From: a virus
DNA: 24,485 nt
IMG/VR virus record: IMGVR_UViG_3300017917_002037
Location: 1-24,485 of that record
Reading direction: 5' to 3' (one strand)
In this document: in pieces, positions 8,416-15,255 of the stretch
Layout: each line of letters opens with the position of its first letter
Numbering within the stretch: the stretch's first letter is position 1
The notes under the pieces: generated by a model
What the model was told of the DNA's origin: nothing
What the model saw: only the letters and a program-made list of their open reading frames with translations
Database searches by the model: none
Translations under genes and position numbers: made by a program

Positions 8416-8733
8416 TCAGAGGGTCAGGAAGACGACGGTCAGGCCGATGGCGGCGACTACATACAGCGCCAGGTCGGCGGCTGTGTCAGCGCGCCGCTCG
8501 GTATGCGTGCGCTTGTCCAGCAGGGCGCTCTGCAGGCGCTCTGCGTGGACGCTGTAGTCTTGATTGACGGGGGGCTGGTAGGCCAGACCGATCTTCACCT
8601 TGCCGGTGTTGTAGGGCGGGGTTTTCTGGCGCGCAGCCTGACCCAAGATGTAGTGGTCGGGCTGGGAAAAACCGCAATACACATATGCGCGTTCCGGTTT
8701 CTTCGTATCCAATGAATTCAATTGCTTGTTCAT
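8416..8733 (-). CDS. AYVYxGF-motif protein A with C-terminal TM
   Basis: This 105-residue protein has an AYVYCGF-x3-DHYI motif (residues 16-29) and a C-terminal membrane segment (about 86-105, DLALYVVAAIGLTVVFLTL). Between these lies a basic helical part (HAERLQSALLDKRTHTERR). The start follows AGGAGAAATC and overlaps the previous stop (ATGA). The motif recurs in the gene at 9331-9534 with an identical 18-base coding block, so the two are paralogous at their N-termini. Family unknown; the anchored, motif-bearing layout suggests interaction with a host membrane process, which is only an inference. Confidence 0.75.
   Translation of the reverse strand: MNKQLNSLDTKKPERAYVYCGFSQPDHYILGQAARQKTPPYNTGKVKIGLAYQPPVNQDYSVHAERLQSALLDKRTHTERRADTAADLALYVVAAIGLTVVFLTL
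8641..8656. repeat. NrdR-box-like dyad, degenerate copy
   Basis: The 16-mer ACCCAAGATGTAGTGG keeps the right half and centre of the CCACTAGATGTAGTGG element found downstream. It encodes the DHYI part of protein A on the minus strand, so part of the similarity comes from the shared peptide. Confidence 0.4.
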
Positions 8734-9155
8734 GATTTCTCCTGTTGCACATTCATTACGGCTGCGTCACAGCGCACACTAGATGTAGTGGTTGGTGCTG
8801 CTTCGCTTTCGCAGCATCGGCGCACGGCAACAACGCCGCCCGTGTGCACATGCTTTCCAGCCAGTTCCTCTGAAGTCGGCAAGCCAGCGTCCACGGCGAT
8901 GTCTTCACATCTCGCGCAGACAATCCGCTCGTCTGGAGGTGCGCTGAGGAAAGTGAACTTCGAGGTGCCGGTCATCCCGTTTCCACACCAGCAATGCACA
9001 GCAAGGTGTGCTTTCCAGCGGTCACCAATCTTTATCGTGGTGACATGCCGAACCCTGTGGATAAGCACGGCTCTGCTGTTCTCCACAAAAGGCTCGCAGG
9101 CAGTCCAATGCACGCCTGGTAAAGGCCGCCTGTACTTCTGCAATGGAACCTTCAT
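8730..9155 (-). CDS. Zinc-ribbon-like protein, unknown function
   Basis: This 141-residue protein has paired cysteines in HCWCGNG (C55, C57) and VCARC (C80, C83), which could bind zinc. The stretch DAGLPTSEELAGKHVHTGGV follows, a pattern met in small proteins of several actinobacterial and proteobacterial phages. The start is ATG 9155, overlapping the upstream stop. The last 30 residues, rich in Ser and Thr, are encoded by DNA containing the palindrome 8776-8791. Nucleic-acid or protein binding is likely, but the target is unknown. Confidence 0.75.
   Translation of the reverse strand: MKVPLQKYRRPLPGVHWTACEPFVENSRAVLIHRVRHVTTIKIGDRWKAHLAVHCWCGNGMTGTSKFTFLSAPPDERIVCARCEDIAVDAGLPTSEELAGKHVHTGGVVAVRRCCESEAAPTTTSSVRCDAAVMNVQQEKS
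8762..8794. repeat. CTGCGTCACAG plus NrdR-like dyad, copy 1
   Basis: CTGCGTCACAG (8762-8772) is followed by ACACTAGATGTAGTGG (8776-8791). The 18-mer CACTAGATGTAGTGGTTG at 8777-8794 is repeated in exact inverted form at 9607-9624. The element lies in the 3' end of the zinc-ribbon gene, in a frame unrelated to the AYVYxGF genes. Confidence 0.6.
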
Positions 9156-9626: not shown

Positions 9627-9964
9627 CACCTGGTGCGCCTGTTCTCCTGTTCTTCCCTGTCCTTGGCTGCCAGCTTGATGCTGGTCTTCTGCTGGTTGGT
9701 GTGGGCCAGCTTGCTGCGGGCCTGCTCCATGGCGGCTCGAGCTGCCAGGATGCGCCAGATCTCGCTGCGGTCATCCACGAAGGCCAGATCGGTGAGCTGC
9801 TTGGCCAGGTCGCTAAACACGGTGGCTGCCCACTTGATGTCGGACAGCACCAGGATCGGGACATCCATGCGACAGTTGACGCCGCGGCCAACGCGGTTGA
9901 GGTACTTGGCCAGCTCCTTGCGCTCGAGGTTGGACTGGCCATCGAAGGGTTTGAATTGTTCCAT
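9626..9964 (-). CDS. Hypothetical 112-residue early protein
   Basis: ATG 9964 is preceded by GGAGACTGACG, a good ribosome-binding site. The product is mostly helical (SNLERKELAKYLNRVGRGVN, FSDLAKQLTDLAFVDDRSEI) and ends in a very basic and acidic mixed tail. It looks like real protein, whereas the recombinase frame that overlaps it at 9813-9964 reads like an out-of-phase shadow. Function unknown. Confidence 0.65.
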   Translation of the reverse strand: MEQFKPFDGQSNLERKELAKYLNRVGRGVNCRMDVPILVLSDIKWAATVFSDLAKQLTDLAFVDDRSEIWRILAARAAMEQARSKLAHTNQQKTSIKLAAKDREEQENRRTR

Positions 9965-10880
9965 CGTCAGTCTCCGTTAAGGCAATTCTGACCCGGCGCT
10001 GCGTTGTTTTTTCCGCGCTCAAACGCCTGAGCGTGATCTCCATCACGGCTTGCAAAGTGCATCTGTGACTCTGCGGCGCTGGTGATGAGCGACTCTCTGC
10101 GCTGTGCCTGGGCGCGTGCCTTGCGTGCGTCCAAGACACTGCCGACCCAGCAGACGGCGATGATGGAAGCGACCAGTCCAAGGCCGAGGGCTGCCAGCAT
10201 CCTTTGATTCGCTTGAGCAGGTTGCTGACCTGGCTCGCATTCCAGTGCTGATTGCCCCTGGGGGTTTCAACACCGCGGGCGGTCAGAGCTGCGGCGATGT
10301 CGCGCAGGGTGGATGCACCCGACTTGCGGACGATGTCGCGCACCAGGGGGCCGACCTTCTCGGCGTAGGCGTCGGCCTGGGCCTGGATCACCTTGATGCC
10401 TGCGGCGCTGCCGATCTCCGGCGTGGGGCTGCCCAGCTTCTTGCCCTGGCGCTTGAGCGCGGCCAAGGCCTGGGTGGTGCGCTCGCTGATGCGCTTGGCT
10501 TCGTACTCCGCGAACACCGCCATCATCTGCAGGAAGGTGCGGTCGGCCTCGGGCATATCGGCGCACACGAAGGGCACCTTGCCGTTGAGCAGCGTGCTGA
10601 TGAACTGGACATCGCGGGCCAGGCGGTCGAGCTTGGCCACCACCAGGGTGGCCTTCTGCTTGCGGGCGAGATCCAGGGCGGCCTGCAGCATGGGCCTGTG
10701 GCGCAGCCGCTTGCCGGTGCCCGACTCCACCTCGGTGAACTCGCCGATGAGCTGCCAGCGGCCACCGTTGAGGAACGTGGTGACGAGCTGGCGCTGGGCG
10801 TCCAGGCCAAGGCCGGACTGCCCCTGGCGGTCGGTGCTGACGCGGTAGTAGGCGACGAAGCGCCCGGTGTGTGCGGTCAT
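9813..10880 (-). CDS. Serine recombinase (resolvase/invertase family), long frame
   Basis: ATG 10880 opens a 355-residue frame whose first 225 residues are a complete resolvase-type recombinase. The N-terminal AYYRVSTDRQ contains catalytic S15 and R13, and then LDAQR, KLDRLARD (residues 83-90) and AEYEAKRISERT follow. A C-terminal helix-turn-helix-like part ends WNASQVSNLLKRI. Such enzymes invert, resolve or integrate DNA through a serine-DNA link. The last 130 residues (encoded at 9813-10205) are Pro/Ser/Arg/His-rich, out of phase with two better genes, and resemble no domain, so the functional protein probably corresponds to 10206-10880. No att site was identified. Confidence 0.85.
   Translation of the reverse strand: MTAHTGRFVAYYRVSTDRQGQSGLGLDAQRQLVTTFLNGGRWQLIGEFTEVESGTGKRLRHRPMLQAALDLARKQKATLVVAKLDRLARDVQFISTLLNGKVPFVCADMPEADRTFLQMMAVFAEYEAKRISERTTQALAALKRQGKKLGSPTPEIGSAAGIKVIQAQADAYAEKVGPLVRDIVRKSGASTLRDIAAALTARGVETPRGNQHWNASQVSNLLKRIKGCWQPSALDWSLPSSPSAGSAVSWTHARHAPRHSAESRSSPAPQSHRCTLQAVMEITLRRLSAEKTTQRRVRIALTETDDGTIQTLRWPVQPRAQGAGQVPQPRWPRRQLSHGCPDPGAVRHQVGSHRV
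9967..10200 (-). CDS. 77-residue protein with N-terminal TM
   Basis: From ATG 10200 the frame gives an N-terminal hydrophobic segment (MLAALGLGLVASIIAVCWVG) and then a basic helix (DARKARAQAQRRESL). It ends two bases before the next gene's ATG, and its last codons supply that gene's GGAGAC site. It is wholly inside the extended frame of the serine recombinase. Because this frame has a normal protein layout and the recombinase extension does not, I favour this gene, but the two readings compete. Its own ribosome-binding site is poor (AGG directly at the start). Confidence 0.5.
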   Translation of the reverse strand: MLAALGLGLVASIIAVCWVGSVLDARKARAQAQRRESLITSAAESQMHFASRDGDHAQAFERGKNNAAPGQNCLNGD

Positions 10881-10888
10881 GGCGGGCC

Positions 10889-11071
10889 TCAGCGGGTCAC
10901 GCAGGCCACGAGGCGGCCCAGGCGGGTGGTGATGGTGCTGCTGCCCCAGGCATAGCAGGCAGCCCACTCCAGGGCTTCGGCGCTTGTCCAGGCGCGGTGG
11001 GTGGCCGTCCAGCCGTCAGCGTCCACGAAGGACACGGTATAGGGCTTGAGGATGTTGATGATGCTTCGCAT
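10889..11071 (-). CDS. 60-residue first gene of the leftward operon
   Basis: ATG 11071 is preceded by AGGAGTTCAGATC and follows the control region. The product (KPYTVSFVDADGWTATHRAW, then EALEWAACYAWGSSTITTRL) has a beta-hairpin and helix flavour. It ends eight bases before the recombinase start. First-expressed small phage proteins are often host-directed, but no specific role is visible. Longer in-phase reading upstream crosses the dyad-rich control region and is rejected. Confidence 0.7.
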   Translation of the reverse strand: MRSIINILKPYTVSFVDADGWTATHRAWTSAEALEWAACYAWGSSTITTRLGRLVACVTR

Positions 11072-13435: not shown

Positions 13436-13665
13436 AGGGCTACCGCAGGCCATTCAGGCCGCCCAGGAACACAGGCCCGCTGCCCGAGCGCCCGTGGCTG
13501 GAGAAGGCCGTGGCCAGGGAGCTGCTGACCACCTGGGAAGCCAACAAGGACAAGGAAGCCATCGACCGCCACCTGGCCCGCATGGACAAGCTGTACGGCC
13601 AGGGAGCCGAGCAGCGCATCCGACAGTACATGAGAGACATCCGCAGGAATGAGCGCCTTGCCTGA
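13432..13665 (+). CDS. 77-residue basic protein
   Basis: The start overlaps the previous stop (ATGA) and the end runs 17 bases into the initiator gene. The N-terminus is Arg/Pro-rich (YRRPFRPPRNTGPLPERPWL) and the remainder is a helix ending QRIRQYMRDIRRNERLA. Nothing diagnostic is visible. Immediate coupling to the initiator suggests a replication-associated role. Confidence 0.7.
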   Translation: MKGYRRPFRPPRNTGPLPERPWLEKAVARELLTTWEANKDKEAIDRHLARMDKLYGQGAEQRIRQYMRDIRRNERLA

Positions 13666-14602
13666 CACAGTCATCCCGTTTGAGCTGCCCAAGCGCAAGC
13701 CCCGCGGGGTGCAGCAGGGAGCGCCGCCAGACCAGCGCAAGGTCTGCGTGCTGCCGATCAAGGCCGTGTTCGACCAGCGGCTGACCCATGGGGCGCTGCA
13801 GGTGCTGGCAGCCGTGTGCGCGTACTGCAACAGGGCAGGCATCACCTGGGTCAGCCAGACCAGGTTGGCCAAGGAGCTGGGCATCAGCCAGCAGGCCGTG
13901 GCCAAGCAGTTCAAGCAGCTGCGCGAGGCAGGCTACCTCGAGACAGTCCGCAAGGGCTTCAAGGGCGAGCGCACAGACACCCTGCGCGTGATCTTCGACC
14001 CAACGGTGGACGCAGCCACGGCCATCGCAGTGACCAGCGCCATCGAAGACACCAGACCACCTGTAATGCAGAAGGAGCAAGCCATGGAAGCTGAGAAGCC
14101 AGATCCCGAAGGGCAAAGACGAGTCGCCCAGGCCATCGCCCAAGTACTCAAGACACCAACCAAGAGGACATACACCATGCCCAAGTCAGGCGACACCCGA
14201 GCCGTCAGAGCAGTCAAGGAGGCCAACCAGAAGGCCTTGGCCAAGCGCCAGAGGATGGCCACCAATCACAACCCACAGGTTGTAAATGAGGAGGCCTCAG
14301 AGGTTGTAAATGAGCCTGTGGATAACTCATTACATTCACAACCTAATCACAACCTGGAGGTTGTAGATAACACAGAGAACACAGGTATAGAGAGTATTAA
14401 GGTTAAGAGTAGTAATAATCTAAATACAGTTCTAGACAACCAACAGGTGTCAGAGCTGACCAGCGCAGGCCTGACCGAGGCCGACATCGCCGAACACCTG
14501 GCCGACCTGCTCGCTGCGTACCAGGCCGAGGGTCTGACGCCCAGGCCTGAACACCTGGTGCCTGGGATCCTGCAGCTGCACCAGGATGCCCGCCGTGCGT
14601 GA
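13649..14602 (+). CDS. Lambda-O-like replication initiator with internal origin
   Basis: This 317-residue protein has an N-terminal winged helix-turn-helix at about residues 47-110 (THGALQVLAAVCAYC, then ITWVSQTRLAKELGISQQAV, KQFKQLREAGYLE). An Asn-rich linker follows at about 205-265 with repeated VVNE/VVDN peptides. The C-terminal helix (EADIAEHLADLLAAYQAEGL) could bind a helicase or loader. The DNA of the linker carries iterons, a DnaA box and an AT-rich block, as in phage lambda gene O. No helicase loader is seen directly downstream. The start overlaps the previous gene by 17 bases. Confidence 0.85.
   Translation: MSALPDTVIPFELPKRKPRGVQQGAPPDQRKVCVLPIKAVFDQRLTHGALQVLAAVCAYCNRAGITWVSQTRLAKELGISQQAVAKQFKQLREAGYLETVRKGFKGERTDTLRVIFDPTVDAATAIAVTSAIEDTRPPVMQKEQAMEAEKPDPEGQRRVAQAIAQVLKTPTKRTYTMPKSGDTRAVRAVKEANQKALAKRQRMATNHNPQVVNEEASEVVNEPVDNSLHSQPNHNLEVVDNTENTGIESIKVKSSNNLNTVLDNQQVSELTSAGLTEADIAEHLADLLAAYQAEGLTPRPEHLVPGILQLHQDARRA
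14264..14440 (+). other. Probable replication origin: iterons, DnaA box, AT-rich block
   Basis: Three direct copies of AGGTTGTAAATGAG-like sequence lie at 14277-14290, 14301-14314 and 14358-14370 (the last is AGGTTGTAGATAA). Three inverted relatives lie at 14264-14274, 14333-14344 and 14345-14355. A perfect DnaA box, TGTGGATAA, is at 14317-14325, between iterons. An AT-rich stretch (about 14384-14436) follows, which stands out in this GC-rich genome and would be the unwinding element. The whole lies inside the initiator gene. Confidence 0.8.
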
Positions 14603-14979
14603 CAGCCCCGCCAAGGCCTCAGGACGGGCCTACAAGGCGCGATCAGGGGCAAGGGTAGGCATGGGTACCAGCCCAGGCCTTCAGCGCCTCCTGGAGCCTC
14701 TGGCACAAACCCAGACGAACGTATGGGGATTGGACAGGGTGGGGGTGTCTGCCGTGTCCAGAACCAGGGGGGAGGGGCAAGCGTGTCCCTGGAAGGCCGA
14801 GGCCAACCATATGCGCGCACGCATCACGCGGGCGATAACGCGCCCGTTGACGCACGCGTGGAAACGACCCTTTGCCCCCCCACCCCACCCATGGCGCTGC
14901 GGGGGTCTGTCTCAATTTTTTCTCCCCTTTTTGTCGGCTGGGGTTTTCGCTGACAATTCCCAACAGGAGCTTTTTGTAA
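14603..14979 (+). other. 377-base gap after the initiator, no convincing gene
   Basis: No frame here has a good start site, protein-like composition and sensible end. The gap holds a dyad CGGGCG-ATAACG-CGCCCG (14829-14846), a C-rich tract (about 14874-14890) and T-rich tracts (about 14918-14945). The ribosome-binding site AGGAG of the next gene is at 14965-14969. It may carry a promoter or terminator for the downstream genes, or part of the origin, but no clear -35/-10 pair is seen. Confidence 0.5.
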
Positions 14980-15255
14980 ATGGCCACTAACTACCAACAA
15001 CGACCTGGACAGGGCAGCCTGTTCAAGAACGACAAGAAGACGACGGACAAGCACCCGAGCCTCAAGGGCAAGGTGATGCTGCCTGACGGCACGCTGCACT
15101 GGGTGTCGGCCTGGACGAAGGAGACCTCTGCGGGTGAGCGGTGGATCTCGCTGCAGATCGGTGAGCCTGTGGCTGGCCAGGCCATGAGCGCGCACAACAC
15201 GGCTAAGGGCAACGGCTACCAGCCGCAAGGGGACGACTCGGATATTCCTTTTTAG
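14980..15255 (+). CDS. Small protein with SSB-like acidic C-terminal tail
   Basis: This 91-residue protein begins QRPGQGSLFKNDKKTTDKHP. It has a beta-rich middle (LKGKVMLPDGTLHWVSAWTK, ERWISLQIGEPV) that could be a small OB-like barrel. It ends GDDSDIPF, like the DDDIPF tail by which bacterial SSB recruits replication proteins. The body lacks the full SSB fold length. An ssDNA-binding or SSB-interaction mimic is inferred. AGGAG lies upstream of the ATG, and its position next to the initiator supports a replication role. Confidence 0.8.
   Translation: MATNYQQRPGQGSLFKNDKKTTDKHPSLKGKVMLPDGTLHWVSAWTKETSAGERWISLQIGEPVAGQAMSAHNTAKGNGYQPQGDDSDIPF

Follow-up and report, generated by a model that had tools for sequence, protein, structure and literature searches.

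The lambda O protein joins an N-terminal DNA-binding domain to a C-terminal partner domain and makes use of the host helicase, a plan to which the protein studied here can be likened. The iterons and the AT tract of lambda and Stx phages are located within gene O (PMC7466680). In the rep gene of pSK41 the boxes occupy a central position; the N-terminus of the pPR9 chimera is of the HTH_36 type. In the PLE satellites of Vibrio cholerae the DNA-binding domain of RepA covaries with the iterons and the C-terminus is conserved; replication requires cognate RepA/ori pairs, and an origin-directed nuclease was suggested as the driver (PMC8263062). In-gene origins and the covariation of domain and origin are already known, and the arrangement reported here is known in kind. 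The new part of the finding is the helix-to-iteron code at the residue level, with four types inside one open reading frame. No such residue-level code was found in the open-access papers searched, among which earlier reports may be missed.

We detected a candidate in-gene origin in the window, the whole stretch of phage DNA analysed (24,485 nucleotides). The gene at 13649-14602 (+) encodes a 317-aa protein with a winged helix-turn-helix (wHTH) N-terminal domain, a hinge, a linker bearing the candidate origin, and a helical C-terminal domain. It is very probably an O/Rep-type initiator, its own linker-coding DNA being the predicted replication origin of the phage, which would be read by residues 81 and 86 and be host-dependent. 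The best reading is an in-gene origin similar to that of lambda O or pSK41, which would depend on replication proteins of the host. A preliminary description of this DNA had placed a winged-helix initiator gene around the repeats, and this was confirmed by the Pfam profile search (HTH_36, PF13730, 38.1 bits, cut-off 25) and by the PHROG matches of the gene product, which are annotated as replication initiation and include some O-like families.

In the AlphaFold2 model of the window protein, the wHTH domain spans residues 47-114 and the linker is a low-confidence region. The recognition helix region, LGISQQAVAKQFKQLREAG (13877-13933, +), covers residues 77-95, with the helix itself at 81-94 according to DSSP of the model; the Q81 codon is at 13889-13891 and the K86 codon at 13904-13906 (+). 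Residues 81, 85, and 86 belong to the first turns of the predicted helix. The best Foldseek matches of the model were the RepA_N-type initiators 4pql, 4pt7, and 5kbj, with modest scores (E about 1e-3, TM by target 0.40-0.51) and with MarR proteins close behind. The PDB sequence search with the initiator returned generic winged helices only. The C-terminal three-helix domain (14399-14599, +; AlphaFold2 on 46 relatives, mean pLDDT 82) is a putative contact to the host replisome. Its fold search of the PDB gave nothing significant (best E 1.4), and its helicase- or primase-binding role is therefore conjecture.

The lambda gene O layout proposed earlier for this locus is retained in one part, the iterons and the AT-rich tract located in the middle of the initiator gene, but not in the protein family. 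The window protein scored below the cut-off of the lambda O family (Phage_rep_O, PF04492; E 0.11, 13.4 bits, cut-off 28.7), its closest folds are RepA_N and MarR-like, and no lambda P was found in the 18 records searched. Lambda has four tandem repeats, whereas the window has short dyads and half-sites in both orientations, a DnaA box, and a half-site beyond the AT-rich block. The pSK41-type RepA_N initiators are among the closest solved folds, at modest scores, and the pPR9 N-terminus is also of the HTH_36 type; however, RepA_N (PF06970) is absent among the Pfam matches listed for the window protein, the C-terminal domain is without a PDB match, and the window belongs to a phage, in a Gram-negative setting suggested by the phage MEP301. 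The likeness to PLE is the covariation of binding domain and iterons with a conserved C-terminus; the PLE origin is intergenic with two types, whereas here the predicted origin is in-gene with four types, and the covariation can be assigned to individual residues.

The candidate origin holds six exact copies of the half-site ACAACC/GGTTGT (at 14268, 14278, 14302, 14338, 14349, and 14359). Four of the six are paired as two perfect dyads ACAACC-N4-GGTTGT, the sole exact ones within the 24.5-kb window: ACAACC-CACA-GGTTGT at 14268-14283, with a 4-bp spacing conserved in QQAVAK-type relatives, and ACAACC-TGGA-GGTTGT at 14349-14364. Two half-sites are single, GGTTGT in AGGTTGTAAATGA (14302-14307, +) and the inverted ACAACC at 14338-14343 (-), which differs in codon frame from its neighbour at 14349. 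The perfect DnaA box at 14317-14325 (-) is TTATCCACA, also written as TGTGGATAA. The repeats are followed by the AT-rich block (14367-14445), the proposed unwinding element, with 68% AT in a window of 63% GC, and a seventh half-site, ACAACC at 14436-14441 (-), is located on the far side of the block. The six half-sites, the DnaA box, and the AT-rich 60 bp fall inside the linker-coding part of the initiator gene.

The preliminary description had listed, at 14264-14440, six iteron-like repeats in both orientations with a DnaA box between them and an AT-rich block after them. The six copies and the perfect box are present, and the most AT-rich 60-mer of the window does start there, at 14386. The natural unit is the 6-bp half-site or dyad rather than a set of equal iterons, and the distal half-site had been missed. 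GC skew, computed for the window and for nine relatives, was weak, with no consistent turn at the site and no clear origin signal. The promoter scan found none, and terminators were at the chance level. Elsewhere in the window, another perfect DnaA box lies near a box with one mismatch (9056-9064, -, and 9079-9087, +); the region at about 8.7-9.4 kb is less GC-rich, and the second most AT-rich 60-mer of the window is at 8699.

Relatives were collected by IMG/VR scans, with at least 143 full genes at the main analysis and 284 IMG/VR relatives in total. Removal of genes at least 95% identical gave a non-redundant set of 81 genes, 79 of them classed, the rule being that a single half-site type occurs three or more times in the linker; the enlarged set has 89 genes. 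The iteron types were named after inspection of the same genes, and one setting was used for the alignment, the linker bounds, and the half-site threshold. The alignment of homologues, suggested earlier as a check, showed this repetition of a single type in all 79 classed relatives, as the classing rule itself demands. The 60-bp stretch richest in AT within each gene starts shortly downstream of the final cluster site, in all 79 genes (5th-95th percentile 8-52 nt). Perfect DnaA boxes, mostly on the minus strand, are in the linkers of 34 of the 79 against 0.1% expected, about 400-fold enriched; the box, found between the repeats in the window, is not universal.

Past the AT-rich block, 41/57 Gln81 (ACAACC) genes have a further half-site matching their own type, as do 13/17 with Arg81 and Lys/Arg86 and 3/12 with Asn86; one Asn86 gene (L105) has GCAACC, not its own type, beyond the block. 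The two half-sites of a dyad are 4 bp apart where the helix reads QQAVAK, and mostly 5-6 bp apart where it reads QQAISK or has Arg81. The linker cluster was the densest of its own type within the record in all nine relatives checked, clearly so in eight. In one record (G012, with L185/L186) a second cluster of four GCAACC half-sites is located outside the initiator gene, compared to five in the main cluster.

Helix and iteron type agree in all 79 classed representatives: 52 have ACAACC with Gln81, 16 have GCAACC with Arg81 and Lys/Arg86, and 11 have GGACAC with Arg81 and Asn86. The enlarged set added a fourth type, Lys81 with TCAACC, in L203 and L207, and its counts are 57 ACAACC, 16 GCAACC, 12 GGACAC, and 2 TCAACC, with 2 unclassed. 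The unclassed pair is the same in both sets, L090 (Arg81, divergent sites) and L078, the MEP301 gene (no sites). The L090 gene (1305-2228) has an Arg81/Arg86 helix, and its sites read GCAACA and GGTAGC; its specificity may be intermediate. By normalised mutual information with the iteron type, residues 81, 86, and 85 rank first among the non-linker aligned positions. Loci outside the rule-setting set, a small hold-out with several near relatives of the training genes, agree wherever the linker is present and residue 81 is Gln or Arg; for L117 and L214 the contig ends before the linker. Taken together, there is strong computed evidence that protein and site form a matched pair across about 85 related phages.

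On the tree of residues 1-180, built without the helix and the linker, the three iteron types require at least nine changes. The starred independent pairs differing in type agree with the residue in four of four (sign test p 0.125), and the test cannot reach 0.05 because there are only four starred independent switches, six in all. L093 and L111 are 95% identical in the hinge DNA, 89% in the N-terminus, and 82% in the C-terminus, and 68% in the DNA-binding domain and 27% in the iteron DNA. L119, L207, and L208 are related in the hinge and 81-98% identical at the C-terminus, yet residue 81 is Arg, Lys, and Gln and the sites are GCAACC, TCAACC, and ACAACC, respectively; the L119 and L207 contigs have an IMG sample number in common. 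The window is 89% identical to L011 in the C-terminal region; their binding domains differ, and so do the dyad spacers, 4 bp in the window and 6 bp in L011. As computed from these comparisons, the DNA-binding domain and its sites appear to be exchanged in concert. A plausible, still tentative, interpretation is a natural recognition-code experiment, in which the reader (residues 81, 85, and 86) and the sites in one gene would be switched together by exchange or mutation, and the diversity among co-occurring phages would be kept by pressures such as origin-directed nucleases, satellites, or competition for initiators.

The repeats could be a by-product of an Asn/Val/Gln-rich linker peptide kept for protein reasons, as EVV/QVV and HNP/HNL do recur in the linker; this is practically excluded by how the half-sites are encoded. 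Six half-sites were reached in 0/20,000 protein-preserving synonymous resamplings (mean 1.5), and the observed 6-mer count in 0/2,000 first-order Markov sequences. Across the relatives, the half-sites occur in every codon frame (EVV/QVV, HNL/HNP, SQP, TTS, GC), and the linker Val codons are GTT/GTA, with GTG/GTC dominant elsewhere in the genes, both being descriptive counts over related genes and not independent events. The linker peptide changes exactly with the DNA type and the recognition helix. Since the half-sites are read in three frames, it is the DNA rather than the peptide that is conserved, which supports the earlier suggestion that the protein is shaped by the DNA element; peptide-driven repeats are ruled out by the frame use and codon choice.

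The sites might act as an intragenic operator, through which the winged-helix protein represses or times its own transcription, with the origin elsewhere. In fold, repressors of the MarR kind come almost as close, the GC skew is uninformative on the origin position, and a repressor would be expected to show the helix covariation as well. We consider this reading unlikely, as the PHROG matches are replication initiators, perfect DnaA boxes are far over chance, the AT-rich block always adjoins the cluster, a matching half-site is located past the block, and most relatives have no other dense cluster of sites. Regulation by self-binding may be a secondary effect beside the origin role. Iteron arrays can also act in partition or copy control, and the sites might have a part in partition, packaging, or incompatibility instead of initiation. 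Such a role is very improbable: no adjoining ParA/ParB-like gene was found in the Pfam and PHROG profile searches, and the DnaA box and the AT-rich block are a better fit for an origin.

The predicted in-gene origin is located in a phage close to the Methylophilales phage MEP301 in a comparison of TerL, initiator, and gene order, with TerL 73% identical over 94%, and RusA, ssDNA-binding, YqaJ, and resolvase genes are common to the phage and the MEP301-type phages. MEP301 is the only annotated (named) phage with an initiator homologue, and one scan of the genome collection gave no confirmed prophage relatives. The MEP301 homologue has 201 aa, without the linker and iterons, and the in-gene origin layout is therefore not universal. 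The small protein at 14980-15255 (+), SSB-like with an acidic DSDIPF tail, is the positional counterpart of MEP301_gp50, annotated as an ssDNA-binding protein. Between it and the initiator are 377 bases without a clear gene (14603-14979) and without an Rfam match. A serine recombinase at 9813-10889 (-) has DNA-invertase/integrase profile matches; according to the MEP301 paper, its counterpart there has only the N-terminal resolvase domain.

The earlier statement that helicase and loader genes are absent from the window agrees with the profile searches. The profile of a DnaB-type helicase gave no match in 19 records, and those of the IstB/DnaC loader (PF01695), Pol A, and lambda P (PF06992) gave none in 18 records each, counting the window; the records are linear and may be fragments. 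The MEP301 paper also reports no polymerase. Because none of these four phage proteins was found, recruitment of the host helicase and polymerase is proposed.

From the anatomy and the covariation, we infer the following origin activity. The winged-helix domain, probably as dimers on the dyads, would bind the half-sites of its own linker DNA. Residue 81, at the start of the helix, would read the first base of the half-site (Gln-A, Arg-G, Lys-T), and residue 86 would help to set the inner bases. Host DnaA at the DnaA box may assist the binding in many members. Binding of the initiator would load and then melt the AT-rich block, which is flanked by the main cluster and the distal half-site. The C-terminal domain would next bring in the host helicase and polymerase.

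Origins of uncultured phages are rarely located from sequence alone. The initiator and its sites are within one open reading frame, and therefore hundreds of metagenomic genes would be matched protein-DNA pairs. The family offers a direct, testable read-out of how a winged-helix recognition helix may specify DNA (at one base, Gln-A, Arg-G, and Lys-T). It may also show how an initiator changes its specificity and still keeps its origin.
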